Assembly (NCBI GenBank): GCA_033875315.1
Contig: JANRJG010000026.1
Location: 62,001-126,000 of the forward strand
DNA length: 64,000 nt
Source: Candidatus Methylacidiphilales bacterium
Lineage (GTDB): Bacteria; Verrucomicrobiota; Verrucomicrobiia; Methylacidiphilales; CAZTYG01
Reading direction: 5' to 3'
Position 1 is the stretch's first letter. Each line of letters opens with the position of its first letter. The notes beneath the pieces were generated by a model. The model was not told the origin of the DNA, ran no database searches, and saw nothing but the letters and a program-made list of their open reading frames with translations. Positions 31,276 through 60,524 of the stretch are shown here, piece by piece. The position numbers were made by a program, and so were the translations under genes.

Positions 31276-31317
31276 TTCCCAATTCCCCATTTCGCATTTC
31301 ACATTTCACATTTCAAA
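31276..31317. repeat. degenerate heptanucleotide array (TTTCACA units)
   Basis: Six consecutive 7-base units: TTCCCAA, TTCCCCA, TTTCGCA, TTTCACA, TTTCACA and TTTCAAA. It fills most of the pyrF-DMT intergenic gap. Confidence 0.7.
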
Positions 31318-31670: not shown

Positions 31671-31743
31671 AAAATCCCTTCATCTCCCGGTCCGGTCTAC
31701 GCGGCCCGTGATCATCCATCCGCGTTTCTGGCACGCTTCCCGC

Positions 31744-31779
31744 TTGCAATAGTATGAAGAATTTATAATTTCTTCATAC
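31744..31779 (+). promoter_or_regulatory. NikR-type operator overlapping the regulator's own promoter
   Basis: GTATGA (31752-31757), 16 bases, then TCATAC (31774-31779) reproduces the GTATGA-N16-TCATAC operator known for E. coli NikR, and the arms extend into a near-perfect palindrome. A consensus -10 TATAAT (31764-31769) sits at its centre, with a weak -35-like TTGCAA at 31744-31749 (spacer only 14). Transcription would start about 5 bases before the ATG at 31781, so the mRNA is nearly leaderless and the regulator would block its own promoter. Confidence 0.75.
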
Positions 31780-31780
31780 C

Positions 31781-32224
31781 ATGTCCACTGCCCTCGTCCG
31801 CTTCACCGTCAGCATGCCCGCCCCGACCGTCCGCGGTCTCGACCGCGTGGCCAAGGGCCGCGGCTTCCCCAACCGCTCGCAGGCCCTGGCGGCCCTCATC
31901 CGAGAAGGTGTTGCGGACTACGATGCCCGCCTCGACACCACCGTCATGATGGGCGTGCTCACTTTCACCTACGAACACCGCCGCCGGAACCTCCAGAACC
32001 GCATCACCGACCTCCAACACCGCCACCTCAAGGAAATCGTCACCATCCAGCTCGTTCACCTGGAAAAACACCAAAGCTTGCAAATCCTCGTCGTCCAAGG
32101 ACCGGCACAAATCCTGCGTCAACTCAAGGATGTCTTCGCTTCGCTCAAGGGCGTTCAACACGCCTCCCTCCAACTCAACAGCACCGTCCTCCCCCCCCTC
32201 CACGACAAACCCGCCCGCCGATGA
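31781..32224 (+). CDS. NikR-family ribbon-helix-helix regulator with altered metal site
   Basis: A 147-residue protein: an N-terminal ribbon-helix-helix (VRFTVSMPAPTVRGLDRVA, then RSQALAALIREGVADY) and a C-terminal ACT-like metal-binding domain (VVQGPAQILRQLKDVFASLKGVQHASL). It aligns without gaps, offset by 4, to E. coli NikR from memory. Ligands His76 and His89 correspond to His80 and His93, but His87 and Cys95 become Leu91 and Ser99. The usual square-planar nickel site is therefore incomplete and the signal may not be nickel. It leads the guanidine island and overlaps the next gene by 4 bases. Confidence 0.85.
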   Translation: MSTALVRFTVSMPAPTVRGLDRVAKGRGFPNRSQALAALIREGVADYDARLDTTVMMGVLTFTYEHRRRNLQNRITDLQHRHLKEIVTIQLVHLEKHQSLQILVVQGPAQILRQLKDVFASLKGVQHASLQLNSTVLPPLHDKPARR

Positions 32225-32967
32225 AAACCGCTGACATCACCCTTCCCGGCATCCCCGAATCCAAGATCCGTTTCCGCGAAATCGTCCCCGGCGGCGGCAA
32301 CTGGTCCCATGTCCTCAAGCGCGGCACCACCCTCCGCCTCATGAACCCCCGCGGCGGCCTCAATGCCGCGGCGATCTTTTTCAACTTCGAACTCCCCTCC
32401 GAACGCTTCAATCTGCCGGACACACTCAAGGCCCAACACACGGCCAAACTCACCACCGGCCACTGCCTCTATTCCGACATGGGCCGCATCCTCGTCTCCA
32501 TACCCCGCGACACCGCCGGATGGCACGATCCCCTCACTGGCCCCTCCACCCCGGAAACCATCCACGCCGCATTCGGCCCCAAATCTTTCCAGGAAGCGCG
32601 CAACCATTTCCACCGCAATGCCCGCGACAACTTTCTGGTCGAGCTTGGCAAATACAACCTCGGCCGCCGTGACCTCGTCATGAATGTCAATTTCTTCAGC
32701 AAGGTCGCGGTCGACAACGAAGGCCAGCTCAACTTCCACCCGGGGCACGCCCAACCCGGTTCGTTCATCGACCTCCGCGCTGAGATGAACACCCTCGTCA
32801 TCCTCAACACCTGCCCCCACCCCCTCTCCCCCGCCGGTCCCTACGACCCCGCCCCCCTCCACCTCGCTGTTTTCACCTCTGATCCCGTGGCCGATGACGA
32901 CCCTTGCCGCATCTCCTGCCCCGAAAACCAACGCGGCTTCGAACTCACCGAACGGTATTTCCTGTGA
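32221..32967 (+). CDS. carboxyguanidine deiminase subunit (urea amidolyase-associated protein 1, DUF1989)
   Basis: A 248-residue DUF1989 protein of the UAAP1 type. Visible features are GGNWSHVLKRGTTLRL, a GGLNAAAIFFN segment, TTGHCLYSDMGRILVSI and RNARDNFLVELGKYNLGRRDLVMNVNFF. Proteins of this pair, found beside 'urea carboxylases', are now known as the two subunits that deiminate carboxyguanidine to allophanate. It is translationally coupled to the NikR-like gene (ATGA) and followed by its partner after a heptamer array. Confidence 0.85.
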   Translation: MKTADITLPGIPESKIRFREIVPGGGNWSHVLKRGTTLRLMNPRGGLNAAAIFFNFELPSERFNLPDTLKAQHTAKLTTGHCLYSDMGRILVSIPRDTAGWHDPLTGPSTPETIHAAFGPKSFQEARNHFHRNARDNFLVELGKYNLGRRDLVMNVNFFSKVAVDNEGQLNFHPGHAQPGSFIDLRAEMNTLVILNTCPHPLSPAGPYDPAPLHLAVFTSDPVADDDPCRISCPENQRGFELTERYFL

Positions 32968-33003: not shown

Positions 33004-33654
33004 ATGCTCACCGAATCCCCCCTCAAACCCACCGCGGCCGTATTGGATCAGATTATCCCCGCCGGAGACGGCTGGATGCACGAAATCAAGGCAGGCCAAA
33101 CCTTCCGCATCGTCGACCTGGAAGGCAACCAGGCCGTCGACACGATTTTTTACAACGCCCTCGACCCCGCCGACCGCTACAGCGCCCAGGAAACGATCCG
33201 CGCCCAGGGCAAAATCTACCTCACCACAGGCAGCCGCCTTCTCTCACTCGAAGGCCACACACTGCTCACCATCACCGCCGATACCTGCGGCCGCCATGAC
33301 ACCCTCGGCGGGGCCTGTGCCGCCGAAAGCAACATGGTCCGCTACGCCCTCGAAAAGCGCTCCATGCACAACTGCCGCGACACCTTCCTGCTCCAGATTG
33401 CGGAATACGGACGCGGCTACTCCAAGGGCGATGTCGGCGCCAACATCAACTTCTTCATGAATGTTCCCGTCACCCCCGAAGGCGGCCTCACCTTCGAGGA
33501 CGGCGTCTCCGCCCCCGGTAAATATGTCGAAATGCGGGCCGAAATGGACGTCGTCTGCCTCATCTCCAACTGCCCCCAGCTCAACAATCCGTGCAATGCC
33601 TACAATCCCACACCCGTGAGGGTGCTGATTTGGGACGTGGACGGCCGTCCTTAG
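33004..33654 (+). CDS. carboxyguanidine deiminase subunit (urea amidolyase-associated protein 2, DUF1989)
   Basis: A 216-residue DUF1989 protein of the UAAP2 type: [61 protein letters not shown] and [17 protein letters not shown] (key residues Cys, His and Asp for metal/substrate binding). It pairs with the preceding gene as the second subunit. Its stop codon lies inside the left inverted repeat of the four-helix-bundle cassette, so its last codons may have been replaced by the insertion. Confidence 0.87.
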
Positions 33655-34104
33655 TCCTTGGTCATTCGTCCTTGGAGGAATCTTGAACCCGACCGACCGA
33701 CTTCAGATAGGCATTCAAGGTCTTGGGAAGCGCATCAACCAGGACTTTAAGCCGTTTGATCTGACCAGTGGTCAGCAGCTTGCGCTTGTGGGCACGCCTC
33801 AGAAAATGACGGGTCTCATTGAGCGATCCACGTGCGATTTTAATGAACCGCTTGTTGTCCAGAAAGCTTCCCCTGCCTGCACCCTCGGCGATGTTCGCTC
33901 CCACCGAGTCCACCGCACGCACAAGCTGTTTGCCCACGGTGTCTTTAGCAAACACATCCCAACAGACGACAATATCCCAAACCGCATCCGCCAATTCTTC
34001 TGCCATCCGATACACCCTCAAATTCTCAAAAGATTCATGCGCCACAGCAAAACCCTATCGCCTTGCCCCATGAAACCAAGGACAAAGGACCAATGACCAA
34101 GGAC
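33647..34104. mobile_element. IVS-like single-gene cassette bounded by 29-base inverted heptamer arrays
   Basis: The left arm 33647-33675 and right arm 34076-34104 are inverted copies, identical at 25 of 29 positions, each made of four CCAAGGA-like heptamers. They enclose one reverse-strand gene for a four-helix-bundle protein. The left arm contains the upstream gene's stop codon and the cassette gene's own C-terminal codons. The right arm contains the carboxylase start. Intervening sequences of 23S rRNA genes have the same design (inverted ends, IVP gene). The cassette interrupts an otherwise same-strand operon. Confidence 0.6.
33662..34045 (-). CDS. four-helix-bundle protein (23S rRNA intervening-sequence protein family)
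   Basis: A 127-residue all-helical protein starting at GTG 34045. The family pattern is clear: [72 protein letters not shown] and a final helix. This family was first found encoded in IVS elements of 23S rRNA genes but occurs widely as scattered single genes of unknown function. It is the only reverse-strand gene in the island and is flanked by inverted repeats. Confidence 0.88.
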
Positions 34105-37100
34105 TTCAAGGTTCTGATCGCCAACCGAGCCACCATCGCCTGCCGCATCATCCGGACGCTGCGCAAATTGGACCTCCCCTCCGTCGCCGTCTATTCCGAC
34201 GCCGACCACGGGTCGCTCCACGTCGGCCAGGCCGACGAATCCGTCTGCCTCGGCGCCGCCCCGGCCAAGGAAAGCTACCTCGACGTCGATAAAATCATCG
34301 CCGCCTGCAAATCGACTGGCGCCAACGCGGTCCATCCCGGCTACGGTTTCCTCAGCGAGAATGCCGCCTTTGCGGAACGACTCGAGCGCGAAGGCATCAC
34401 CTTCATCGGTCCCACTCCGGAACAACTCCGCTCCTTCGGCCTCAAACACCGCTCCAAGGAACTCGCCGCCGCCGCCGGGGTCCCCCTCCTCCCCGGCTCC
34501 GGCCTGTTGCGCGATGCCGTCCACGCCGCCGCCGAGGCCGATCGCATCGGCTATCCGGTCATGCTCAAAAGCACCGGCGGGGGCGGCGGCATCGGCATCC
34601 GCGTCTGCCACGACCCCGTCGAACTCCACGCCCAATTCGAGGCCGTCAGCCGCATGGCCGCTGACAACTTCAACGACCCCGGTGTCTTCCTTGAGAAATT
34701 TGTCGCCCGCGCCCGCCATATCGAGGTCCAACTCTTCGGCGACGGCCAGGGGAACGTCATCGCCCTCGGCGAACGCGATTGTTCCGTCCAACGCCGCAAC
34801 CAAAAGGTCATCGAGGAAACCCCCGCCCCCGGCCTCACTGATTCGGTGCGCAGCGAACTCCACGCTTCCGCCATCCGCCTCGGCCAATCCGTCCACTACC
34901 GCTCCGCCGGCACGGTCGAGTATGTCTTCGATGCCGACACCGGCGCCTTCTACTTCCTCGAGGTCAACACCCGCCTCCAGGTCGAACACGGCGTCACTGA
35001 GGAAGTCTTCGGCCTCGACCTCGTCGAATGGATGGTCCGCCTCGCCATGGGCGATAACCCGATCCATGAATACTTGTCTTCCACCAAGAACCTAGAACTA
35101 GGAACCAAGAACCGCTTGCACTCCGTCCAAGCCCGCCTCTACGCCGAGGACCCCCACAAAAACTTCCAACCCAGTTCCGGCCTGCTCATTGAGGCTGCAT
35201 TTCCCCCCAATGTCCGCGTCGAAACCTGGGTCGAGCGCGGCACCGTCGTCCCCCCATACTACGACCCCATGATCGCCAAGATCATCGCCACGGGCCCCGA
35301 CCGCGCCTCCGCCATCGCCCGGCTCCAAGAAGCCCTCTCTCACACCACCCTGTCCGGGATCGAAACCAACACCGCCTACCTTGGCGAAATCCTCCAACAC
35401 CCGGACTTCGTCGCCGGTCGCCCCACCACACGCATGCTGGCCGACTTTTCCTACCACGCCCACTCCATCGATGTCCTCGATGGCGGAGCCATGACCACCG
35501 TGCAGGACTACCCTGGACGACTCGGCTACTGGGCCGTCGGTGTTCCCCCTTCCGGACCGATGGACGATGCCTCGTTCCGCCTGGCCAACCGACTCGTCGG
35601 CAACCCCGAGGGTGCACCCGCCCTCGAAATCACCCTCACCGGCCCCACCCTCAAGTTCAACTCCGACACCGTCATTGCCCTGACAGGAGCCCGCATCGAA
35701 AGCGACCTCCCGATGGACCAAGCCGTCCACGTGAAGGCAGGAACCGTCGTCAAACTCAAGCGCATCGCCGGCACCGGATGCCGTACCACCCTGGCCATTT
35801 CCGGCGGCATCCGTTCCTCGGAATACCTCGGCAGCCAATCCACCTTCACTCTGGGCGGCTTCGGCGGCCCCGCCGGGCGCGCCCTCCGTGCCGGCGACGT
35901 CCTGCATCTTTCCCCCAACCAGAAACAAGAAACCGGAAACTGGAAACTGCTTGATACTCCTGACTGGTCGCATCATTGGCCCATCCGCGTGATGGCTGGT
36001 CCGCATGGCGCCCCCGACTTCTTCACGGACGAGGACATCCGGATGTTTTTCACCACCGATTGGAAAGTCCATTACAACTCCAACCCCACCGGCATCCGCC
36101 TCATCGGCCCCAAACCGCAGTGGGCCCGTCCCGACGGCGGCGAAGCCGGCCTCCACCCCTCCAACATCCACGACAACGCCTACGCCATTGGAACCGTCGA
36201 TTTCACCGGCGACATGCCCATCATCCTCGGCCCCGACGGCCCCAGCCTTGGCGGCTTCGTCTGTCCGGCGACCATCATCCGTGCGGACCGCTGGATCATG
36301 GGCCAACTCCGCCCCGGCGACACCCTCCGCTTCCTCCCCGTCACCCTCGAAGAAGCCGAATCCGCCGAACAAGAAATGGAATCCTCCATCGCTTCAGGTC
36401 ACTACCCCGCTTTGTCTTCATTCAAGGACCATCGACCAAGGACCAAGGACGAATCCTGCATCATCCACCACATTCCCGCCCGCGGGCCCATACCCGCGGT
36501 CAATTACCGCCCCAGTGGCGACAAGTATCTCCTGATCGAATACGGTCCCATCGTCCTCGACTTCGATCTCCGCCTCCGCGCCCACGCCCTCATGCAATGG
36601 GTGGAGAAACATCAACTCCCCGGGGTCATCGACCTCACCCCCGGCATCCGCTCCCTCCAGATCCATTACGACAATCGCGTTCTCCCACGCCACAAACTCC
36701 TGGCCCTCCTGGAAAAAGCCGAAGACGAACTCGGCGACCCCAATGACTTCGAAGTCACCTCGCGCATCGTCCACCTGCCACTCTCCTGGGACGACCCCGC
36801 CACCCGGCTGGCCATCGAGAAATACACCCAATCCGTCCGCCCCGACGCCCCCTGGTGCCCGAGTAACATCGAATTCATCCGCCGTATCAACGGCCTGGAA
36901 TCCATCGATGAAGTGAAGCAAATCGTCTTCAACGCCAGTTACCTCGTCCTCGGCCTGGGTGACGTCTACCTCGGGGCCCCCGTGGCCACCCCGCTCGACC
37001 CCCGCCACCGCCTCGTCACCACCAAATACAATCCCGCCCGCACCTGGACGGCGGAAAACTCCGTCGGCATAGGCGGCGCCTACCTGTGCATCTACGGCAT

Positions 37101-37716
37101 GGAAGGGCCCGGGGGTTACCAGTTTGTCGGCAGAACCCTGCAAGTCTGGAACACCTTCCGCCAGACCGCCGACTTCAAGGACGGCAAACCCTGGCTCCTA
37201 CGCTTCTTCGACCAGATCCGCTTCTACCCCGTCGAGGCCGACGAACTCCTGGAAATGCGGAAAAACTTCCTCCTTGGCCGCCACAAACTGAAGATTGAAG
37301 AAGAACCCTTCCGTCTCCGTGACTACCACCGATTCCTCGAATCCAACGCCGCATCCATCGCCACTTTCCGCGCCACACAAAGAAAAGCCTTCGCTGAAGA
37401 GCGCGAGCGTTGGAAAAGCCTCCCCCCCATCCCGGACGCGGAAGACACCGCCTTCGGCACCACCGACGAGGCCGCCATTCCCGAGGGCTGCGAAGCCGTT
37501 CCTTCGCCCCTCAGTGGCAACCTGTGGAAGATGCTCGTCCAACCCGGCCAGAAAGTGGCCGAAGGCGAAACCCTCGCCATCGTCGAAGCCATGAAAATGG
37601 AAACTGTCGTTCATGCACCCTGCAGTGGCCAGGTTGTGGAAACACGGGCTACCGAGGGCAAACCGGTCACCGCAGGACAAACCCTCGCCGTCGTCAAAGC
37701 GACGGCGAATGGATGA
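34093..37716 (+). CDS. biotin-dependent guanidine/urea carboxylase
   Basis: From ATG 34093 about 1207 residues. Order: biotin carboxylase (about 1-440; GGGGGIGIRVCHD, KKVIEE-type ATP grasp), KipA-like AHS2 (about 455-760), KipI-like AHS1 (about 790-1060), and a C-terminal biotinyl domain with AIVEAMKMETVV, the biotin Lys lying 39 residues from the end. Such enzymes carboxylate urea to allophanate or guanidine to carboxyguanidine. The two DUF1989 partners favour guanidine. Three heptamer arrays lie in frame within it. The start at 34093 is chosen because 34063 is a TTG inside the repeat. Confidence 0.9.
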   Translation: MTKDFKVLIANRATIACRIIRTLRKLDLPSVAVYSDADHGSLHVGQADESVCLGAAPAKESYLDVDKIIAACKSTGANAVHPGYGFLSENAAFAERLEREGITFIGPTPEQLRSFGLKHRSKELAAAAGVPLLPGSGLLRDAVHAAAEADRIGYPVMLKSTGGGGGIGIRVCHDPVELHAQFEAVSRMAADNFNDPGVFLEKFVARARHIEVQLFGDGQGNVIALGERDCSVQRRNQKVIEETPAPGLTDSVRSELHASAIRLGQSVHYRSAGTVEYVFDADTGAFYFLEVNTRLQVEHGVTEEVFGLDLVEWMVRLAMGDNPIHEYLSSTKNLELGTKNRLHSVQARLYAEDPHKNFQPSSGLLIEAAFPPNVRVETWVERGTVVPPYYDPMIAKIIATGPDRASAIARLQEALSHTTLSGIETNTAYLGEILQHPDFVAGRPTTRMLADFSYHAHSIDVLDGGAMTTVQDYPGRLGYWAVGVPPSGPMDDASFRLANRLVGNPEGAPALEITLTGPTLKFNSDTVIALTGARIESDLPMDQAVHVKAGTVVKLKRIAGTGCRTTLAISGGIRSSEYLGSQSTFTLGGFGGPAGRALRAGDVLHLSPNQKQETGNWKLLDTPDWSHHWPIRVMAGPHGAPDFFTDEDIRMFFTTDWKVHYNSNPTGIRLIGPKPQWARPDGGEAGLHPSNIHDNAYAIGTVDFTGDMPIILGPDGPSLGGFVCPATIIRADRWIMGQLRPGDTLRFLPVTLEEAESAEQEMESSIASGHYPALSSFKDHRPRTKDESCIIHHIPARGPIPAVNYRPSGDKYLLIEYGPIVLDFDLRLRAHALMQWVEKHQLPGVIDLTPGIRSLQIHYDNRVLPRHKLLALLEKAEDELGDPNDFEVTSRIVHLPLSWDDPATRLAIEKYTQSVRPDAPWCPSNIEFIRRINGLESIDEVKQIVFNASYLVLGLGDVYLGAPVATPLDPRHRLVTTKYNPARTWTAENSVGIGGAYLCIYGMEGPGGYQFVGRTLQVWNTFRQTADFKDGKPWLLRFFDQIRFYPVEADELLEMRKNFLLGRHKLKIEEEPFRLRDYHRFLESNAASIATFRATQRKAFAEERERWKSLPPIPDAEDTAFGTTDEAAIPEGCEAVPSPLSGNLWKMLVQPGQKVAEGETLAIVEAMKMETVVHAPCSGQVVETRATEGKPVTAGQTLAVVKATANG
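35086..35113. repeat. in-frame heptanucleotide array in the biotin carboxylase domain
   Basis: Units AAGAACC, TAGAACT, AGGAACC and AAGAACC lie in the coding sequence just before the conserved AEDP segment. They encode a Lys/Asn/Leu-rich loop with no counterpart in typical carboxylases. Confidence 0.6.
35920..35947. repeat. in-frame heptanucleotide array in the AHS2 domain
   Basis: Units CAGAAAC, AAGAAAC, CGGAAAC and TGGAAAC encode a Gln/Glu/Thr/Trp-bearing loop. The reading frame continues intact. Confidence 0.6.
36422..36456. repeat. in-frame heptanucleotide array between carboxylase domains
   Basis: Units TCAAGGA, CCATCGA, CCAAGGA, CCAAGGA and CGAATCC lie in the linker between AHS2 and AHS1. 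The unit family matches the ends of the four-helix-bundle cassette. Confidence 0.65.
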
Positions 37717-37801
37717 TTGCTGATTTCTGATTGCGGATTGTTCGAACAGAATTCAGATAAACCCATAACCAATCAGCATTCATCAATCAAAAATCAGAAA
37801 T
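37712..37801. repeat. pair of inverted heptanucleotide arrays between carboxylase and allophanate hydrolase
   Basis: The left array, 37712-37739, has units ending GATT (GATGATT, GCTGATT, TCTGATT, GCGGATT). The right array, 37767-37801, has complementary units (AACCAAT, CAGCATT, CATCAAT, CAAAAAT, CAGAAAT). The left one contains the carboxylase stop and the right one ends on the next ATG. They could fold into a long hairpin. Confidence 0.65.
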
Positions 37802-38685
37802 GACCTCCAAGTCCAAACTCCAGGCGCATTACGAAAAGATCGCCGCCGATGGTCGGTTCAACGCCTGGATCACCCTCGTGCCTTTGGAGGAAAACTTGCG
37901 CCGCCTGGAATCCCTCTCCCCTTCCCTACCCCTCTACGGTAAGACTTTCGCCGTGAAGGACAACATCGATGTCGCCGGCCTGCCGACGACTGCCGCCTGC
38001 CCTGGCTACGCCTATACGCCGAACACCTCGAATCCCGTGGTCCAAGCCCTCCTTAATGCCGGGGCCCTCTGCCTGGGAAAGACGAACATGGACCAGTTCG
38101 CCACCGGCCTCGTCGGCACCCGCTCCCCGCACGGTGCCGTGAAGAATGCCTTGGCGGAGGAATTCATCTCCGGAGGCTCGAGTTCCGGTTCGGCCGTCGC
38201 GGTCGCCCGTGGTCACGTCGACTTCGCCCTTGGCACCGACACCGCAGGTTCGGGCCGCGTCCCGGCCGCCTTCAACGGACTGGTCGGCACCAAGCCCACG
38301 CGCGGCCTCCTCAGCACCCGCGGCGTCGTGCCCGCCTGCCGCTCCCTCGACTGCGTCACTTTTTTCACCAAGGACATCGCCCAGGCCCGCACCCTCCTCG
38401 GACTCACCGCCGCGTTTGATCCCCTCGATCCCTGGTCCCGCCAAGCAAAACCCACACCTGCCGCCGACGCTCCCTGGCGCATCGGCGTTCCGCGTGAGGA
38501 TCAATGGTTCTTCGACAACGACGAGACGGCCCGCTCCGCCTACATCTCCGCCATCGCTCAATGGAAAGCCCTCGGTCACACCGTGGTGGAGATCGACCTG
38601 GCCCCCTTCCTCGAAACCGCCCGCCTTCTCTACGGCGGCCCTTGGGTCGCCGAGCGATACACGGCGGTTGGCGAATTCCTTCATC

Positions 38686-38710
38686 AAATCAGAAATCAGA
38701 AATCAGAAAT
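38686..38710 (+). repeat. AAATCAG tandem repeat at the atzF frameshift
   Basis: Three exact AAATCAG copies (38686-38706) plus AAAT. The frame change between the two halves of the allophanate hydrolase occurs here. Confidence 0.85.
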
Positions 38711-39091
38711 TCCCTAGACCCCACAGTCACAAAAATTATTTTAAATGGTCAAAACCCCACCGCCGCCGACTGCTTCCACGCCCTCCATCGGCTCCAAGAA
38801 CTGAAACGGGCCACCGAACCCGTCTGGGAATCCATCGACTTCCTCCTCCTCCCCACCACCCCGACCTGCTACCGCATCGACGAAGTCCAAGCCAACCCGG
38901 TCGAGCTGAACAGCCGCCTCGGCACCTACACCAACTTTGTCAACCTGCTCGACCTCTGCGCCGTGACCGTGCCCCACGGGTCACAAGTCGGCGGCGTCCC
39001 CACCGGCCCCACCCTACTCGCCCCCGCCTTCCATGACGATTTTCTATTGCAGGCAGCAGCGGTATTTCTTGGCGATAAGCTGCATTCCCTA

Positions 39092-39123
39092 AAATCAGAA
39101 ATCAAAGATCAGAAATCAGAAAT
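39092..39123 (+). repeat. in-frame AAATCAG-type array in the 3' half of atzF
   Basis: Units AAATCAG, AAATCAA, AGATCAG, AAATCAG plus AAAT. It encodes a Lys/Ser/Glu/Ile-rich linker between the amidase and C-terminal domains. Confidence 0.75.
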
Positions 39124-39600
39124 TGAATTGGCCGTCGTCGGCGCCCACTTGAAGGGCCTGCCATTACACCATCAATTGGTCAAACTCGGGGCGCGTTTTC
39201 TAAAGCTCACCCGCACCGCTCCCACCTACAAACTTTACGTCCTGCCCGACAGCACCCCGCCCAAACCCGGCATGGTTCGGGTCAATGCCGGTGGTGCCTC
39301 CATCGAAGTGGAAACCTATGCCCTGTCTCCCGAAGCCTTCGGCCAGTTCGTCGCCCAAATCCCTTCCCCCCTCGGCATCGGCACGATCACCTTGGAAGAG
39401 GGCGAAACCGTCAAAGGATTCCTCTGCGAGCCCGCCGCCCTGGAATCCGCCCCCGAAATCACCGCATACGGGGGATGGCGGGGTTACCTGACCTACCGGG
39501 AATCCAACTGACTGTTTTCAGGGTTTTTCCCCAAGACTTGGCCCGTTGCCTGCTTCATGAAATGAAATCTGTTTTTTCCATGCCTTTTTGCCCACCCGAC

Positions 39601-39628
39601 TGCACACGAATTTTGACTTTCTTCATAC
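39601..39628 (+). promoter_or_regulatory. partial NikR-type operator upstream of the creatininase gene
   Basis: The 28-base segment matches the operator at 31752-31779 at 19 positions, including the complete right half TTTCTTCATAC (39618-39628). The left half is poorly kept. It lies 22 bases before the ATG at 39651 and may be a weaker site of the same regulator. Confidence 0.45.
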
Positions 39629-39650
39629 TTTTTTAACCCCACTTCTCCCC

Positions 39651-40439
39651 ATGTCCCTCCCCGCCCCCCTCTTCTGGTCCGAACGCACCTGGCCGGAGAT
39701 CGCCAGCCTCCGCGATTCCGGCATGCACCTGGCCGTACTTCCGGTGGGGGCCACGGAACAACACGGCCCCCACCTCGCCTGCGGCATGGACACGATTTCG
39801 GCCCAATGGGTGGCGGAGCAGGTCTCGGCCCGCACCGGGGTTCCTGTCCTTCCCGCCCTCCCCTACGGTTGCTCGCTCGGTCACAGCCACCGCTGGCCCG
39901 GGACCCTCTCCCTGACCCCGCACATCCTCACGGATACCGTCGTCTCCCTCTACGAATGGCTGCACCGAGCGGGATTTCAGCGTCTTCTCATTCTGAACGG
40001 CCACGTCACCAACCATGCCCCGCTGCGGTGCTCCCTCGAAATCATCCGCTCCCGCTGGGACGACGCCTGCATCGGCCTCCATTCCATCGCCACCCTCAGC
40101 CCCCGCATCCAAACCCGCTTTGCCGCGGATGCCGCCGACTGGCACGCCAATGAGGCCGAAACCTCGCTCATGCTCCACCTCGCCCCGGAAAAAGTTCGCT
40201 CTGAACTCCTCGACACTTCGGACGACCCCGACCGCACAGAAGGCCTGCCCTTTGCCTTCCCGGTCAACCGGACAAGCAGCAATGGCGTGACCGGCTACCC
40301 CAGCCGGGCCACCCCCGCCGCCGGAGCAGAACTGGCCCGCATGTTGCTGGAAGACTGGGAAGCCCTCGTCCGCACTGCCCTCACCGCCCAACCCCCATTG
40401 AACCACTCCTACGGAACGCCGATCACACAGGACCAATAA
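39651..40439 (+). CDS. creatininase-family amidohydrolase
   Basis: From ATG 39651 the protein is 262 residues. The creatininase fold metal ligands are visible: Glu and His in [10 protein letters not shown], Asp in CGMDTI, His in [11 protein letters not shown] and [10 protein letters not shown], and Glu in HANEAETSL. Family members hydrolyse cyclic amides such as creatinine or act on formamide-type intermediates. Creatinine opening gives creatine, a guanidino compound, which would suit this island, but the substrate is unproven. It is 2 bases upstream of the glutamine synthetase gene. Confidence 0.85.
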
Positions 40440-40441
40440 CC

Positions 40442-41791
40442 ATGGACTTATCCGCCTTCAAAGAAACCCTCATCGCCCAGGGGGTCAAATACTGCATCGG
40501 TGCCTACGTCGACATCCACGGCGTGCCCAAGGGCAAAGTCGTCCCCATTTCCCACTTCGAGGACTTCGCCCAAGGCTCGGAACTTTACACCGGTTACGCG
40601 CTCGACGGCCTGGGCCAGGGACCGAACGACGACGAGATCGCGTCGGTGCCCGACCTCGACCGAATGGTCATTCTCCCTTGGAATACGGAAGTGGCCTGGT
40701 TCCCGGCCGACAACACCTTCCACGGCCAGCCCTACCCCATCAACACACGGGTCGCCTTCAAAAAAGTCCTCCAACAGGCCGCCGACCTGGGCTTCCAGTT
40801 CAACCTCGGCATCGAGTGCGAAGTCTACTTCGTCGGCCAGGACGAGAACGGCGCCCTCTTCGTCCCCAACGGCGACGACAACCTCATCAAGTCCTGCTAC
40901 GACGTCAAACGCTTCCTCGACCAGTATCCCCTGCTCGACCAGATGGCCTCGACCCTCAACGCCCTCGGTTGGGACGTCTACTCCTTCGACCACGAGGACG
41001 GCAACTCGCAGTTTGAATTCGACTTCAAACACAGCGACGGCCTGACCATGGCCGACCGCTACATCTTCTTCCGGTATCTGGCCAAGAAGATCGCCGCCGA
41101 CCACGGCCTGCTGGCCACCTTCATGCCCAAACCCTTTGCCGACAAAACCGGCAACGGGGCCCACTTCAACATGTCCCTCTCCGACCCGGCCACGGGCAGG
41201 AACCTCTTTGCCTGTCCAAAGGAGGAGGACCCGCGGGGCCTAGGCCTCACTCCGCTCGGTTACCAATTCATCGCCGGCATCCTCCGCCACGGCCGGGCCA
41301 TCTGCGCGGCCTTCGCCCCCACGGTCAATTCCTACAAGCGCCTGATCCGCCGCGGCGCCATGAGCTATTACACCTGGGCCCCGGTCTTCAATTCCTTCGG
41401 TACCAACAACCGCACCAATTCCATCCGCGTGCCCATGTCCGGAGGCCGCTGCGAATCCCGCAACGCCGATTCTTCCTGCAACCCCTATCTCGCCGGTGCC
41501 CTGGTTCTCGCCGCCGGGCTCGAAGGCATCCGGGAAAACCTCGACCCCGGCAATCCCCAAACGGAAAACCTCTACGAATTCACCGACGCCCAGCTGAAAG
41601 AACGGGGCGTCCAACCCCTGCCCAAGACTCTCGGCGAAGCCGTGGAGGCCTTCGCATCCGACCCCTGGATCGAAAGTGTCCTCGGCCCGGAACTGCGGCA
41701 GGAATTCATCACCTACAAGCAGGCCGAGTGGGAGGAATACCACCAGACCGTCAGCGATTGGGAAATCAAGCGCTACGCCCGGCTTTTCTGA
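40442..41791 (+). CDS. glnT: type III glutamine synthetase (GlnT-like)
   Basis: A 449-residue enzyme with the GS beta-grasp N-terminus ([17 protein letters not shown]) and catalytic core: [11 protein letters not shown] and [16 protein letters not shown] with metal Glu residues, NGAHFNMSL with the ammonia/glutamate site, and [15 protein letters not shown]. GlnT-type enzymes condense glutamate with ammonia or small amines such as methylamine (gamma-glutamylmethylamide synthesis). In this island it would capture the ammonia released from guanidine or allophanate. Tightly linked to its neighbours on both sides. Confidence 0.9.
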
Positions 41792-41809: not shown

Positions 41810-42175
41810 ATGACCGCCACCCTCCAAGACACCACCGCCATCGCCGAAACCATCGGGCGCTACACCGAAGGCGCACGCACGGGTGACCTCGCCAAAATGA
41901 AGGCCGCCTTCCACCGCGATGCCCAGATCTTCGGCTACATCCAGGGTGAACCGTTCTTTGGACCGATCCAGATCCTCTTCGATTGGGACGAAAAAAACGG
42001 CCCCGCCGCGGACATCCAAACCCAGATCACCTCGATCGACGTGGCCGGGACCGTGGCCAGCGTCCGCCTGGAAATCGACAACTGGACCGGCATCCGCTTC
42101 ACCGACTTTTTCACCCTCTGCAAAGTGGACGGCCGCTGGCTCGTCATGAACAAAGTCTTCCACCGGCACAATTGA
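41810..42175 (+). CDS. NTF2-like (lumazine-binding-type) protein
   Basis: A 121-residue cone-shaped NTF2-like protein: [38 protein letters not shown], a strand-rich middle and a C-terminal [22 protein letters not shown] (key residues His, Asp and Trp). The family covers isomerases and ligand-binding proteins of unknown role. It lies 18 bases after glnT and 52 bases before the substrate-binding protein gene. No function in nitrogen use is known. Confidence 0.78.
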
Positions 42176-42227: not shown

Positions 42228-43214
42228 ATGAACATCCCCAAATCCCTGACCCTCGCCGCCGCGTTGGTCATCGCCACCACTGCGGGCGCATTCGCCCAGG
42301 CCAAGAAAGAACCCCTCAAGATCGCCTACAGCGACTGGCCGGGCTGGATCGCCTTTGAAGTCGGCATCCAGAAAGGCTGGTTCAAGGAAGCCGGCGTCGA
42401 CGTCAAATTCGAATGGATGGATTACCTCCCCTCCATGGACGCTTTTGCCGGCGGCAAGGTCGACGCGGTCACCATGACCAACGGCGATGCCCTCGTCACC
42501 GGTGCCAATGGCGGCAAGAGCAAGTTCATCCTCCTCACCGACTACAGCAACGGCAACGACATGATCGTGGCCAAGCCCGGCATCAAATCGCTCAAGGACC
42601 TCAAAGGCAAAAAAGTCGGCTTGGAAGTCACCCTCGTCGAACACCTCCTCCTGCTCAAAGGCCTGGAAAAAAATGGATTGAAGCAGTCGGACATCACCCT
42701 GGTCCCCACACCCACCAATGAAACCCCGCAAACCCTCGCCTCGGGTCAGGTCGAAGCGATCGGTGCCTGGTATCCGGTTTCGCAGCAGGCCCTCAAGGCC
42801 GTCCCCGGCTCCAAACCCATCTGGACCAGCGCCGACGCCCCCGGCCTGATCTACGATGTCCTCGCCGTCAGCCCCCAGAGCCTCTCCGCCCGCAAGGAAG
42901 ACTGGGCCAAGGTGGCCAAGGTCTATTACAAGATCGTCGACTACCTGAAAGATCCCAAAACCAAGGACGATGCTGTGAAAATCATGGCCGCCAAGGTCAA
43001 GGTTTCCCCGGAAGAATTCGCCACCTTCCTCCCCGGAACGTACTTCCTCACCCTCGCCGAAACCAAGGCCCGCTTCAAGAAAACCGACGGCCTCGATTCG
43101 CTCTACGGCTCCACCGCCATTGCCAACAAGTTCAATGTCGACAATGCCGTCTACAAAGAATCGCAGAAACCGGAAGACTACATCGACGCCTCCATCATTG
43201 AATCTCTGAAGTAA
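42228..43214 (+). CDS. ABC transporter substrate-binding protein (urea carboxylase region type)
   Basis: A 328-residue periplasmic protein with a signal peptide (about 1-24) and NitT/TauT-type fold: [30 protein letters not shown], then [15 protein letters not shown] and [16 protein letters not shown]. Its closest family is the binding protein found beside 'urea carboxylases', so the ligand is probably guanidine or a related cation. It is followed by a permease and an ATPase. A hairpin separates it from the permease. Confidence 0.88.
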
Positions 43215-43230
43215 ATCACCCCCATGGCCG

Positions 43231-43259
43231 TCCACGGATCGTCCAACCCGTTCCGTGGA
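43231..43259 (+). other. hairpin after the binding-protein gene
   Basis: TCCACGGA (43231-43238) pairs with TCCGTGGA (43252-43259). No T-tract follows. Such structures protect the 3' end of binding-protein mRNA and give more of it than of the permease. Confidence 0.5.
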
Positions 43260-43309
43260 TTCCAGCAGATGAACCATTCCCAAACTTCGCGTCCTTCGCG
43301 AGCTCCCGG

Positions 43310-43342
43310 CCTCCATGCTTCCGCAAAGCGGGACGATGGAGG
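43310..43342 (+). other. hairpin covering the permease ribosome binding site
   Basis: CCTCCAT (43310-43316) pairs with ATGGAGG (43336-43342), with an inner CCGC-GCGG stem. The 3' arm holds the GGAGG that precedes the GTG starts at 43346 and 43349, so it would limit permease translation. Confidence 0.5.
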
Positions 43343-43345
43343 TTT

Positions 43346-44368
43346 GTGGTGAAACCCTCCCCTCCCCGCGACCCACTCGGCCTGCGCAGCGAACTCTCCC
43401 CACGGAGCCAGTTGCTGCTCCTGGTCCTATCCTTCATCCTCCCGCTCGCCCTTTGGAGCGCCATCAGCTACCTGCCCTTTCTCTGGCACCCCATGGTCCG
43501 CATCACGGAACCCGGCGGAGTGGATTACTTCCAAAAGGGCCAGCTTGTTGACCGCCAGGTGTTTTCCGAGGAATCCGCCAAGGCGGTTTCGGCCGGACTG
43601 GCCAAACCGGACGGCCACCGCGCCAACCCGGTGTACCTGCCCGCCCCCCACGAGGTCGCACGGGCCCTGGTCACCGCCTTCCAGACCCCTCCCCGCCTGC
43701 CCACCGAACCCTGGCTGCACCAGAGCCTCTGGCATTCCGTCACCATCATCTTCTGGGGCTTCACCCTTTCCTCCCTCGTCGGCCTTCCCCTGGGCATCCT
43801 CTGCGGCAGCTTCCGCGCCGTCTCCCGCACCACCGAACCCTTCATCGAATTCTTCCGCTATCTTCCCGCTCCCGCTTTTGGCGCCCTCTGCGTGGCCGTC
43901 CTCGGCATCTACGACGCCCCCAAGATCGCCATCATCTTCATCGGCACCTTTTTCCAACAAGTCCTGGTCATCGCCAACACCGTGCGCAAGGTCGATCCCG
44001 CCCTCCTCGAAGCGGCCCAAACCATGGGGGCCAGCCCCAAGCAACTCGTCACCCGCGTCATCATCCCCGCCTCCATCACCGATGTGTACACCGACATGCG
44101 CATCCTCCTCGGCTGGGCCTGGACCTACCTCATCGTGGCCGAATTCATCGGCACCTCCTCCGGTATCACCTACTTCATCAACCAGCAGGGCCGCTACCGC
44201 AACTTCGACAACGTCTTCGCCGCCATCATGATGATCGGCATCATCGGCCTGGCCTCCGACCTCTTCCTCGCCTGGTTGGGCAAACAAATCTTTCCCTGGA
44301 AAGGCAATGGCCGCCCTTCCATCCTGCGCCTTTTCTTCAAAGCCCTCGCCCCGGACTACGTGAAATGA
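43346..44368 (+). CDS. ABC transporter permease (NitT/TauT type)
   Basis: A 340-residue membrane protein starting at GTG (43346 or 43349). About six to seven hydrophobic segments are seen, and the BPD-transport EAA loop is clear (EAAQTMGASPKQLVTRVIIPASI, key Glu-Ala-Ala and Gly). A long periplasmic segment lies at about 30-110 before the core, unusual for this family. It forms the membrane channel with the ATPase encoded downstream. A repeat element separates it from that gene. Confidence 0.88.
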   Translation: MVKPSPPRDPLGLRSELSPRSQLLLLVLSFILPLALWSAISYLPFLWHPMVRITEPGGVDYFQKGQLVDRQVFSEESAKAVSAGLAKPDGHRANPVYLPAPHEVARALVTAFQTPPRLPTEPWLHQSLWHSVTIIFWGFTLSSLVGLPLGILCGSFRAVSRTTEPFIEFFRYLPAPAFGALCVAVLGIYDAPKIAIIFIGTFFQQVLVIANTVRKVDPALLEAAQTMGASPKQLVTRVIIPASITDVYTDMRILLGWAWTYLIVAEFIGTSSGITYFINQQGRYRNFDNVFAAIMMIGIIGLASDLFLAWLGKQIFPWKGNGRPSILRLFFKALAPDYVK

Positions 44369-44371
44369 TGA

Positions 44372-44473
44372 TTGAACAGGAGGTAATGGAGAAAACAGAG
44401 CAATGCGGCGTTTTATTTTTAACTATAAACCCTCATCGGCCTTGCTCAGTTAACTCTGTTTCCTCCTGTTAAA
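44372..44473. mobile_element. ORF-less inverted-repeat element (same family as the GxxExxY cassette ends)
   Basis: Left arm 44372-44406 and right arm 44439-44473 are 35-base inverted copies (27 of 35 identical, both beginning as in TTGAACAGGAGG...GCAAGGC). They share their ends with the GxxExxY cassette at 61.7 kb but enclose only 32 bases. It looks like a deletion derivative or miniature element, and it sits between two genes of one operon without breaking either. Confidence 0.6.
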
Positions 44474-44479
44474 ATTCCC

Positions 44480-45379
<900 letters not shown>

Positions 45380-45414: not shown

Positions 45415-45445
45415 CCAAGGACCGATGACCAAGGACGATGGACCC
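45415..45445. repeat. heptanucleotide array before sbtA (CCAAGGA family)
   Basis: Units CCAAGGA, CCGATGA, CCAAGGA and CGATGGA, ending directly at the ATG. The AAGGA sequences may act as weak ribosome binding sites. Confidence 0.65.
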
Positions 45446-46390
45446 ATGTCCGCTCTTGATCCTGTCATCTGCTTCTTCCTGCTTGGTTTGGTCGGCGGGC
45501 TGGCCAAATCCGACCTCGACATTCCCGACCAGATCAACAACGCCATCAGCATTTACCTCCTCCTGGCCATCGGGATCAAAGGCGGGATTGCCCTCCATGG
45601 TGCCACCCTCGCCCCCATCGCCCTCCCTGCCCTCGGGACCCTCGGCCTCGGTCTTCTCATCCCCGTGCTGGCCTACACCATCCTGAGGAAACTCGGCAAG
45701 TTTTCCGGCATCGACTCCGCCGCCATTGCCGCCCACTACGGTTCGACCAGTGTCATCACTTTCGCCGTTGCCCTCAACATCCTCTCGCGCCAAGGCATCA
45801 CCCACGAGCCCTTCATGGTCGTCCTCCTGGTCATCCTGGAAATCCCCGCCATCATCGTCGGCCTGATGCTGGCCCGGCTGACCCATGCCTCCACCAATGT
45901 CCACTGGAGCGAAACCCTCCGCGAGGTCGTGCTGGGCAAGAGCGTCCTCCTCCTTGTCGGCGGGCTCCTGGTCGCCTGGTTCAACGGTCCCGAACGCATG
46001 ACCGACATCAACAAGCTCTTCATCGAACCCTTCAAGGGCGTGCTGGCGCTCTTCATGGTCGGCATGGGGGTGGCCGCAGCCAAACGCCTGGGCGACCTGC
46101 GCACGGCTGGTCCCTTCTTGGTGGCATTTGCCCTGGTCATGCCCCCTCTGGCTTCGTTACTCGGCATCGGCACCGGCATGGCCTGCGGACTTTCCTACGG
46201 CGGGTGTGTTCTGCTGGGCGTACTCGCCGCCAGCGCCAGCTACATCGCCGCCACCGCCGCCGTCCGCGTAGCCCTCCCCGAAGCCAACCCCGGCTACTAC
46301 CTCGTCGCCTCCCTCGGCATCACTTTCCCCTTCAACGTCATCATCGGCATCCCCCTCTACCTCCGCTTCGCCTCCTGGATGGGGGCCTGA
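45446..46390 (+). CDS. sbtA: SbtA-type sodium-dependent bicarbonate transporter
   Basis: From ATG 45446 the protein is 314 residues with about ten hydrophobic segments in two related halves. The SbtA family pattern is clear (FFLLGLVGGLAKSDLDIPD, LLLAIGIKGGIALHG, HYGSTSVITFAVAL, SYIAATAAVRVALPEANPG). SbtA imports bicarbonate with sodium in cyanobacteria and other bacteria. Placed after a guanidine/urea carboxylase and its importer, it would supply the bicarbonate that enzyme uses, an inference from context. No SbtB-type PII partner is adjacent. Confidence 0.85.
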   Translation: MSALDPVICFFLLGLVGGLAKSDLDIPDQINNAISIYLLLAIGIKGGIALHGATLAPIALPALGTLGLGLLIPVLAYTILRKLGKFSGIDSAAIAAHYGSTSVITFAVALNILSRQGITHEPFMVVLLVILEIPAIIVGLMLARLTHASTNVHWSETLREVVLGKSVLLLVGGLLVAWFNGPERMTDINKLFIEPFKGVLALFMVGMGVAAAKRLGDLRTAGPFLVAFALVMPPLASLLGIGTGMACGLSYGGCVLLGVLAASASYIAATAAVRVALPEANPGYYLVASLGITFPFNVIIGIPLYLRFASWMGA

Positions 46391-47656: not shown

Positions 47657-47698
47657 GTCCTTGGTCCTTGGTCCTTGGTCCACCGTCATCCGTCATCC
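47657..47698. repeat. heptanucleotide array (GTCCTTG units)
   Basis: Units GTCCTTG three times, then GTCCACC, GTCATCC and GTCATCC. It is the reverse-complement family of the CCAAGGA arrays and lies between two convergent genes. Confidence 0.75.
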
Positions 47699-59659: not shown

Positions 59660-60524
59660 TAGTTCTTTGAAAGAAAAGTCTGCCGGGAAACCGGCGGATG
59701 GGATAATCCCGGGTGACCGGGGAACGATCGGTGCCAGCTGGTGGCCCGGTCCCTCTGCACGGCCGAAAGGCACGGCGGCAGGCAACTTTCACCAGCCCCT
59801 CTGGAGGTGGTCGCACACCTCCAGCTCCTGCGAAATCAGGGGCTAGGCGGAAAGCCGTGGAACCGGCGAAGGCTGGTCCAAGAAACAACGGCGATCCGAG
59901 TGAGAACCCTGGCGTGTTTCGACGCCGGGGGGAACACAGTGACCCGGAGGGTCACGGTTGCTACTGTGCACCAGCACGGGGCGGTCGTCCCGGAGTTGAA
60001 CCAAACTCCACAAGATTCCAGCCACGGGCTGGAAAACGCAAGGGGACGGACGTGTCGGGGAGTGGGTCCGCCGGGCAAGGCGGACAAAACCTCCTGATTC
60101 CGGCAGCGCTACAAACGGCGCCGCCGGATGACGAATCGAAAAGCAACCTGAGAGTTAAGAGGTCAGACCCGTCATTCAGGGCCAACGTGCCGCCAAAAGC
60201 GGCAGCCGTCCCTGAAGAAACCGGTCCAGACGCGGAATCCGATCATTCGTCGGCGTGTCTGGACCCAGTTGGGCGAGCGAGCCGCCGGCAGGCGGCCACC
60301 GAACCCAGCCGAGAGGCCTCACTCAATAATCCCGCATGGGTGACCATCGGGACGGCCCTGCTACGAGGCCGGAGACTCCGCTTGCCGTGGAGAATAGCGT
60401 CGGGAAGCTGGCAGCCCACCGCAAGGTGGAGCGCCGAATGCCAGCCATCGGGAAAGAGCGCGTGGCGAACGCCCACCCCCACTTTTCAAACCCCCGGGAC
60501 CCACCATCCCGGGGGTTTCTTTTT
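59660..60524 (+). ncRNA. candidate large structured non-coding RNA (about 860 nt)
   Basis: No protein family fits this stretch. It is packed with strong hairpins: 59682-59686/59691-59695 (GAAA loop), 59801-59809/59816-59824, 59939-59945/59949-59955, 60066-60072/60079-60085, 60175-60181/60210-60216 enclosing 60188-60193/60199-60204, 60223-60231/60257-60265, and 60408-60413/60439-60444 enclosing 60416-60420/60425-60429 (GCAA loop). It ends in an intrinsic terminator. RNase P, tmRNA and group II intron signatures were looked for and not found. The 5' end is estimated. Confidence 0.6.
60488..60524 (+). terminator. intrinsic terminator of the structured RNA
   Basis: A 12-bp stem (60488-60499 with 60507-60518), a 7-base loop and a C-T5 tail (60519-60524). 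It is the strongest intrinsic terminator seen in the window and points to plus-strand transcription through the preceding region. Confidence 0.9.

Follow-up and report, generated by a model that had tools for sequence, protein, structure and literature searches.

NikR-type operator and nickel-site loss in a regulator clade linked to predicted guanidine operons

We identified a palindrome in a Methylacidiphilales genome that is probably the operator of a NikR-derived, nickel-blind repressor, which would release a guanidine operon upon binding guanidine or a metabolite of its pathway; we place the probability of this reading at about 0.72. The regulator belongs to a single clade that diverged from nickel-sensing NikR, no longer has the nickel site and spread along with guanidine-carboxylase islands. 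The window, that is, the whole stretch of DNA analysed, comprises 64,000 nt (JANRJG010000026.1, positions 62,001–126,000, forward strand) of a genome of 3.15 Mb.

The palindrome and the operon in the window

Using a pattern scan of the window, we located the predicted operator GTATGAAGAATTTATAATTTCTTCATAC at 31752–31779 (no strand assigned), a palindrome with perfect 10-bp arms (GTATGAAGAA/TTCTTCATAC) that has no mismatch to GTATGA-N16-TCATAC and is conserved in relatives. Its half-site centres are separated by two helical turns, and C at 31780 is the sole base between it and the regulator ATG at 31781, so the coordinates and spacing given in the original prediction hold. Within the window it is the only perfect palindrome of 28 bases with 10-bp arms, and the second-best match to the pattern there has two mismatches. 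In the genome as a whole (3.15 Mb), no second perfect copy exists and a single site comes within one mismatch; the reversed pattern used as a control gave no match across the same sequence. A chance palindrome is ruled out by this genomic uniqueness, the reversed-pattern control, the 10-bp arms and the excess of N16 sites over shuffles in relatives. Based on conserved and covarying sites, binding by the adjacent regulator, as a NikR-type operator with autoregulation implies, is very probable, and the site very probably serves control of the whole operon as well.

The regulator gene (31781–32224, +) heads a run of genes that all point the same way. Its stop codon is overlapped by the start of UAAP1 (32221–32967, +; TIGR03425, 318.9 bits, cut-off 206), a carboxyguanidine deiminase subunit of the CgdA/B type, followed by the second deiminase subunit, UAAP2 (33004–33654, +; TIGR03424, 336.4 bits, cut-off 285); both are DUF1989 proteins. 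Downstream are a guanidine carboxylase of a type annotated as urea carboxylase (34063–37716, +; TIGR02712, 1817 bits, and alignment to 3va7), an allophanate hydrolase assigned by domain and family searches (37800–39511, +), a creatininase-family amidohydrolase (39588–40439, +; PF02633), a type III glutamine synthetase-like enzyme (40442–41791, +; TIGR03105, 597.7 bits, cut-off 470) and a small lumazine-binding-like (SnoaL-type) protein (41810–42175, +; PF12893, 95.5 bits). An ABC importer (42228–45379, +; Pfam NMT1, BPD_transp_1 and ABC_tran) consists of a binding protein (42228–43214), a permease (43346–44368) and an ATPase (44480–45379), and its genes are found again in related islands. After the island lies a gene for an Sbt_1 sodium-dependent bicarbonate transporter-like protein (45425–46390, +; PF05982, 368.6 bits), which may feed bicarbonate to the biotin carboxylase.

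Guanidine carboxylases are distinguished from urea carboxylases by Asp rather than Asn at position 1330 (K. lactis numbering); position 1584 holds another conserved Asp (PMC11410670). In the alignment to 3va7, the window carboxylase has Asp aligned to Asn1330 of K. lactis urea carboxylase, its diagnostic Asp residues sitting in VDFTGD and GLGD at the 1330 and 1584 positions. All 80 of the 80 scored island carboxylases have the guanidine-type Asp at the 1330 position. The other enzymes of the guanidine carboxylase pathway are encoded too, with two DUF1989 subunits above their cut-offs and an allophanate hydrolase that is frame-broken in the assembly. Because the carboxylase has guanidine-type Asp residues, the window operon is, judged by its sequence, a guanidine operon; the proposed guanidine link is supported.

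The frame break in the allophanate hydrolase gene (about 38686–38720) coincides with a tandem heptamer, (AAATCAG)x3, and could reflect either slippage frameshifting (phase variation) or an assembly error. Short heptamer repeats of the ACCAAGG, CATTTCA and AAATCAG types occur at 31290–31315, 34070–34110, 36424–36450, 39092–39120 and 47660–47680; they are found in intergenic DNA and also within conserved enzyme genes or at their margins, where they apparently encode repeat-derived peptides such as PRTKDE and DQKSEIE. Between UAAP2 and the carboxylase, a gene for a 23S rRNA-intervening-sequence (four-helix bundle) protein (33662–34045, −; PF05635) runs antisense. A MISL RNA (Rfam, 498 bits) lies at 59701–60473 (+), where the mechanical list of open reading frames crosses it.

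A regulator clade without the nickel site

The window regulator has the RHH and NikR_C domains of NikR (PF01402, 20.6 bits; PF08753, 72.5 bits), and it is the only NikR_C protein in the genome. The solved proteins closest to it are NikRs, and the best PDB matches of its predicted fold (pLDDT 89.7) are likewise all NikR. Its scores lie below the curated NikR equivalog cut-offs (100.9 bits vs 105, 82.1 vs 83 and 75.9 vs 175). Several relatives in the clade score above the NCBIfam cut-off for nickel-responsive NikR, so that genome annotation likely misnames them.

E. coli NikR coordinates nickel in a square-planar site formed by His76, His87, His89 and Cys95. These residues align with His, Leu, His and Ser in the window protein, which has therefore lost two of the four ligands; the replacement of His87 and Cys95 by Leu and Ser had been predicted correctly. 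Thr9, Glu95 and Gln106 of the window protein correspond to Thr5, Glu91 and Gln102 of E. coli NikR, whose numbering we use below.

We searched 388 genomes of the phylum, without preselection, for NikR_C with Pfam and then read the loci. UAAP, carboxylase, glutamine synthetase and creatininase genes are absent near NikRs with the canonical HHHC ligands, whereas NikRs with an altered site have them nearby. An unselected Pfam search of a proteobacterial class gave the same split, and one proteobacterial genome holds both kinds, an HHHC protein without an island (L244) and an HHHT protein within one (L241). Twenty canonical loci re-fetched with wider flanks still showed no island. Counting distinct NikRs for which 8 kb or more of context was available, 101 of the 106 that have altered ligands lie in an island, as against 0 of 35 with HHHC (Fisher 4e-28, relatedness uncorrected). 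The five altered NikRs outside islands are L079 and L098 (ABC genes, short contigs), L083 (short contig), L070, which is on a different long branch, and L179, which is away from any island. The last of these (G085 C18, 4494–4830, −) is an HHHY-type NikR standing alone in a genome with no UAAP1 match, and is possibly a relic left by island loss.

In a tree computed from 127 columns and 184 rows, for which the ligand columns were left out, every one of the 116 island-linked altered NikRs falls into one clade (SH-aLRT 99); the inner forks are weak because of the small number of columns for so many rows. The clade spans Verrucomicrobiota and Alpha-, Beta- and Gammaproteobacteria, and Cys95 is absent from 116 of its 116 island-linked members. 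The ligand positions vary freely within the clade and the changes are not confined to the anticipated Leu and Ser: nickel-site states include HLHS, HHHY, RHLT, RHLV, AHFS, SNNI and YNNT, among others. Relative to canonical NikR, Gln102 (100%) and Glu91 (82%) are newly fixed in the clade. A GTDB-wide scan with the island alignment returned 447 relatives, and none of the best 80 of these, which include Verrucomicrobiota, Novosphingobium, Croceicoccus, Erythrobacter, Methylobacillus, Mangrovitalea and Thiogranum, has Cys95; as the set was picked by the island alignment, it indicates breadth and not frequency. Nickel is not the conserved signal of the island regulators.

Operator conservation and promoter elements

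The upstream regions of relatives yielded the operator consensus GTRTKA-N16-TMAYAC. In an independent set of 300-bp upstream regions, an N16 site with at least 11 of 12 matches was present in 28 of 86, compared with 0–5 at other spacings and 0–1 in shuffles. The N16 sites lie 5' of the regulator, the ABC binding-protein gene or UAAP1, i.e., at the heads of transcription units, and 79 of 112 distinct island regulators have a site before one of these genes. In the zones scanned, approximately 30% of the island regulators lack an N16 site reaching 11/12, and reversed or direct half-site pairs occur at L034, L038, L039, L044 and L047. In seven genomes of the phylum with the same island and no NikR, no N16 operator stands in front of the island genes. 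This joint presence and absence of regulator and operator is, at the level of sequence comparison, strong evidence of function. In Novosphingobium-type islands (L112, L114, L121, L123, L125 and L146), two tandem NikR-like genes flank the ABC transporter genes; in several of these islands, the transporter and the second regulator each have an operator of their own.

Residue 5 of E. coli NikR is on the strand that reads the DNA. Island regulators with Thr5 have GTATGA half-sites in 13 of 13 cases, and those with Ser5 have GTATTA or GTGTTA in 55 of 60; the corresponding half-site counts are 28:4 and 145:5. On the tree, the Thr5/GTATGA pairing arose in about three switches among the scored rows, to which the L034/L038/L039 group was added by eye, giving roughly three to four independent events. 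No reverse switches were found on the tree, and a sign test over the 2–3 available pairs was not significant.

It is very improbable that the operator is a mere survivor, handed down without change from an E. coli-like nickel NikR. The window site is identical to the E. coli site (PMC7055735), but the nearest relatives and the sister HHHC group have Ser5 with GTGTTA or GTATTA (GTGTTA-N16-TAACAC in the sister group), Thr5 with GTATGA re-arose in separate subclades, and E. coli NikR sits on a distant branch. The tree speaks against direct inheritance of the E. coli operator. Because Thr5/GTATGA arose repeatedly inside a clade of Ser5 and GTATTA/GTGTTA, the half-site identity with E. coli appears convergent, and the N16 spacing appears ancestral. 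Of the idea that an old DNA code was joined to a new signal, the old spacing and the departure from nickel stand; the half-sites, being convergent, do not belong to what was inherited. The original prediction also included a leaderless mRNA, for which TATAAT inside the operator would serve as a −10 box and the repressor would stop RNA polymerase there. TATAAT does occur, at 31764–31769, and with TTGCAA at 31744–31749 it would make up a sigma-70-type promoter (31744–31769, +). The two closest relatives, L052 and L053, have a TTGMAA −35-like box in the same place, 2 bp 5' of the operator, no Shine-Dalgarno sequence was seen 5' of the regulator ATG, and the operators of L052, L053 and L055 also adjoin the start codon. 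However, the spacing of 14 nt is off consensus, a sigma-70 scan found no promoter on the + strand at the window operator, and TATAAT is found in 1 of 82 family operators, namely the window copy, which rules it out as a conserved −10 element. A sigma-54-like element with better family-wide support adjoins the operator and predicts a leader. We therefore regard the leaderless mRNA as unproven and doubtful.

This −24/−12 element, TGGCACGCTTCCCGCT (31729–31744, +), scores 13.5 of 15.5 against TGGCAC-N5-TTGCW with GG-N10-GC (shuffle p 0.004), its −12 part (CCGCT) being imperfect. The predicted start at about 31755 falls within the operator and would leave a leader of about 26 nt. Such elements end at most 20 nt 5' of the operator in 34 of 82 operators (shuffle mean 0.61), scans at shifted positions relative to the operators gave mostly 0, and the window's genome encodes sigma-54. 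No −24/−12 element was found at the operators of L052 and L053. Islands without a NikR-like regulator keep sigma-54 elements and lack the operator, and alphaproteobacterial members have TTGACA within the operator. Since every promoter variant has the operator across the promoter or the start, we predict repression rather than activation.

The signal and relation to known systems

In the mechanism we propose, the regulator is probably a tetramer, as in NikR, with two ribbon-helix-helix heads on the two half-sites. Lying over the promoter or start of the first gene, the regulator gene itself, the bound repressor would block transcription initiation for the entire operon, its own gene included. 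Guanidine or some metabolite of the pathway would fill the remodelled former nickel pocket, releasing the repressor and turning the operon on. With a sigma-54-type promoter, present in many relatives and probably in the window, the operon could integrate nitrogen shortage, through an activator, with substrate, through the repressor.

Seven proteobacterial islands (L100, L106, L119, L128, L129, L234 and L240) have a guanidine-II riboswitch in or just before the carboxylase gene, which is independent evidence that these islands answer to guanidine. Rfam searches found no guanidine riboswitch in the window island, where relaxing the threshold made no difference, none in the other verrucomicrobial and alphaproteobacterial islands that were scanned, and no guanidine-I riboswitch in the 388 genomes of the phylum. 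Given verrucomicrobial islands without a riboswitch, the regulator is the leading candidate for the substrate sensor that these islands would need. In another verrucomicrobial lineage, L181–L186 (G002, G009, G011, G070, G089 and G112) have a guanidine island that includes sigma-54 promoters and an extra copy of a UAAP2-like gene; neither a NikR nor an Rfam riboswitch accompanies it.

Guanidine is suggested as the ligand by the operon context, the loss of the metal site and the conserved acidic residue nearby. That the clade comprises the first known guanidine-binding transcription factors, with the metal site converted to a guanidinium pocket (Glu, Gln) and the DNA geometry kept, is a tentative proposal to which we give slightly less than an even chance. 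A pathway product or a nitrogen signal is also possible: the repressor might sense glutamine, allophanate or an ammonium-linked metabolite in place of guanidine. ACT-like C-terminal folds such as that of NikR often bind small metabolites in other families, the island encodes a type III glutamine synthetase-like enzyme, and, in the seven islands that have a guanidine riboswitch of their own, the repressor might respond to a different signal. Sigma-54 promoters already provide input on nitrogen status, and some substrate sensor is expected in the scanned verrucomicrobial islands that lack an Rfam guanidine riboswitch, which makes a nitrogen or product signal unlikely. We consider it still more improbable that the regulator responds to nickel or another metal through its leftover histidines and represses the guanidine operon on that cue, for instance so that Ni-dependent routes take precedence while nickel is abundant. 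The NikR fold, the NikR-type operator and the many members above the NCBIfam cut-off would suit such a response, as would His76 and His89 in the window protein and the three histidines of HHHY and HHHT members, which might still bind a metal. Against it, no member of the island clade retains Cys95; His76 is replaced by A, R, Y, S, N or C, His87 by L, N, Q or V and His89 by F, L, Q or N; the carboxylase pathway uses biotin and not nickel; and no intact-site NikR examined lies in a guanidine island. Residual nickel regulation is thus judged unlikely, and release by guanidine or a pathway metabolite remains our preferred reading.

The clade offers a concrete and widespread candidate for a guanidine-sensing transcription factor with a defined operator, and it is directly testable. 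The clade also illustrates clearly how a metal sensor can lose its metal and still retain its DNA geometry, and its one-residue code, Thr or Ser at residue 5 with G or T in the half-site, can be read across phyla. In the open-access literature, we found no report linking NikR to guanidine or urea-carboxylase operons (subscription papers and preprints were outside the scope of the search).

The E. coli nik operator is GTATGA-N16-TCATAC (PMC7055735), and the window system shares with it the RHH and NikR_C domains, the N16 dyad, identical half-sites and Thr at residue 5. It differs in lacking two nickel ligands, in having Glu and Gln fixed close to the former nickel site, in its distant branch, and in its target, which is predicted to be its own guanidine operon instead of a nickel importer. 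Deltaproteobacterial NikR sites, GTGTTAC-[N13/14]-GTAACAC in both orientations (Rodionov 2004, PMC545781), resemble those of the Ser5 members and the sister HHHC group in half-site type, spacing and occasional reversal; those NikRs, in contrast, regulate nickel transport and hydrogenases (PMC545781). The pathway of guanidine carboxylase, CgdAB and allophanate hydrolase is credited to Schneider 2020 (cited in PMC11410670 and PMC12186494), and the window has the same enzyme set, the diagnostic Asp residues and an ABC importer. The known examples are riboswitch-controlled, whereas here a NikR-derived protein and its operator would replace or add to that control. Guanidine-I and guanidine-II riboswitches act on the same target genes, with guanidine-II 5' of the carboxylase in seven islands, but they are RNA sensors, and neither the window island (any guanidine riboswitch) nor the searched Verrucomicrobiota (guanidine-I) yielded one. 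The NikR fold and operator are thus known, the regulon is new, and the signal is probably new as well.
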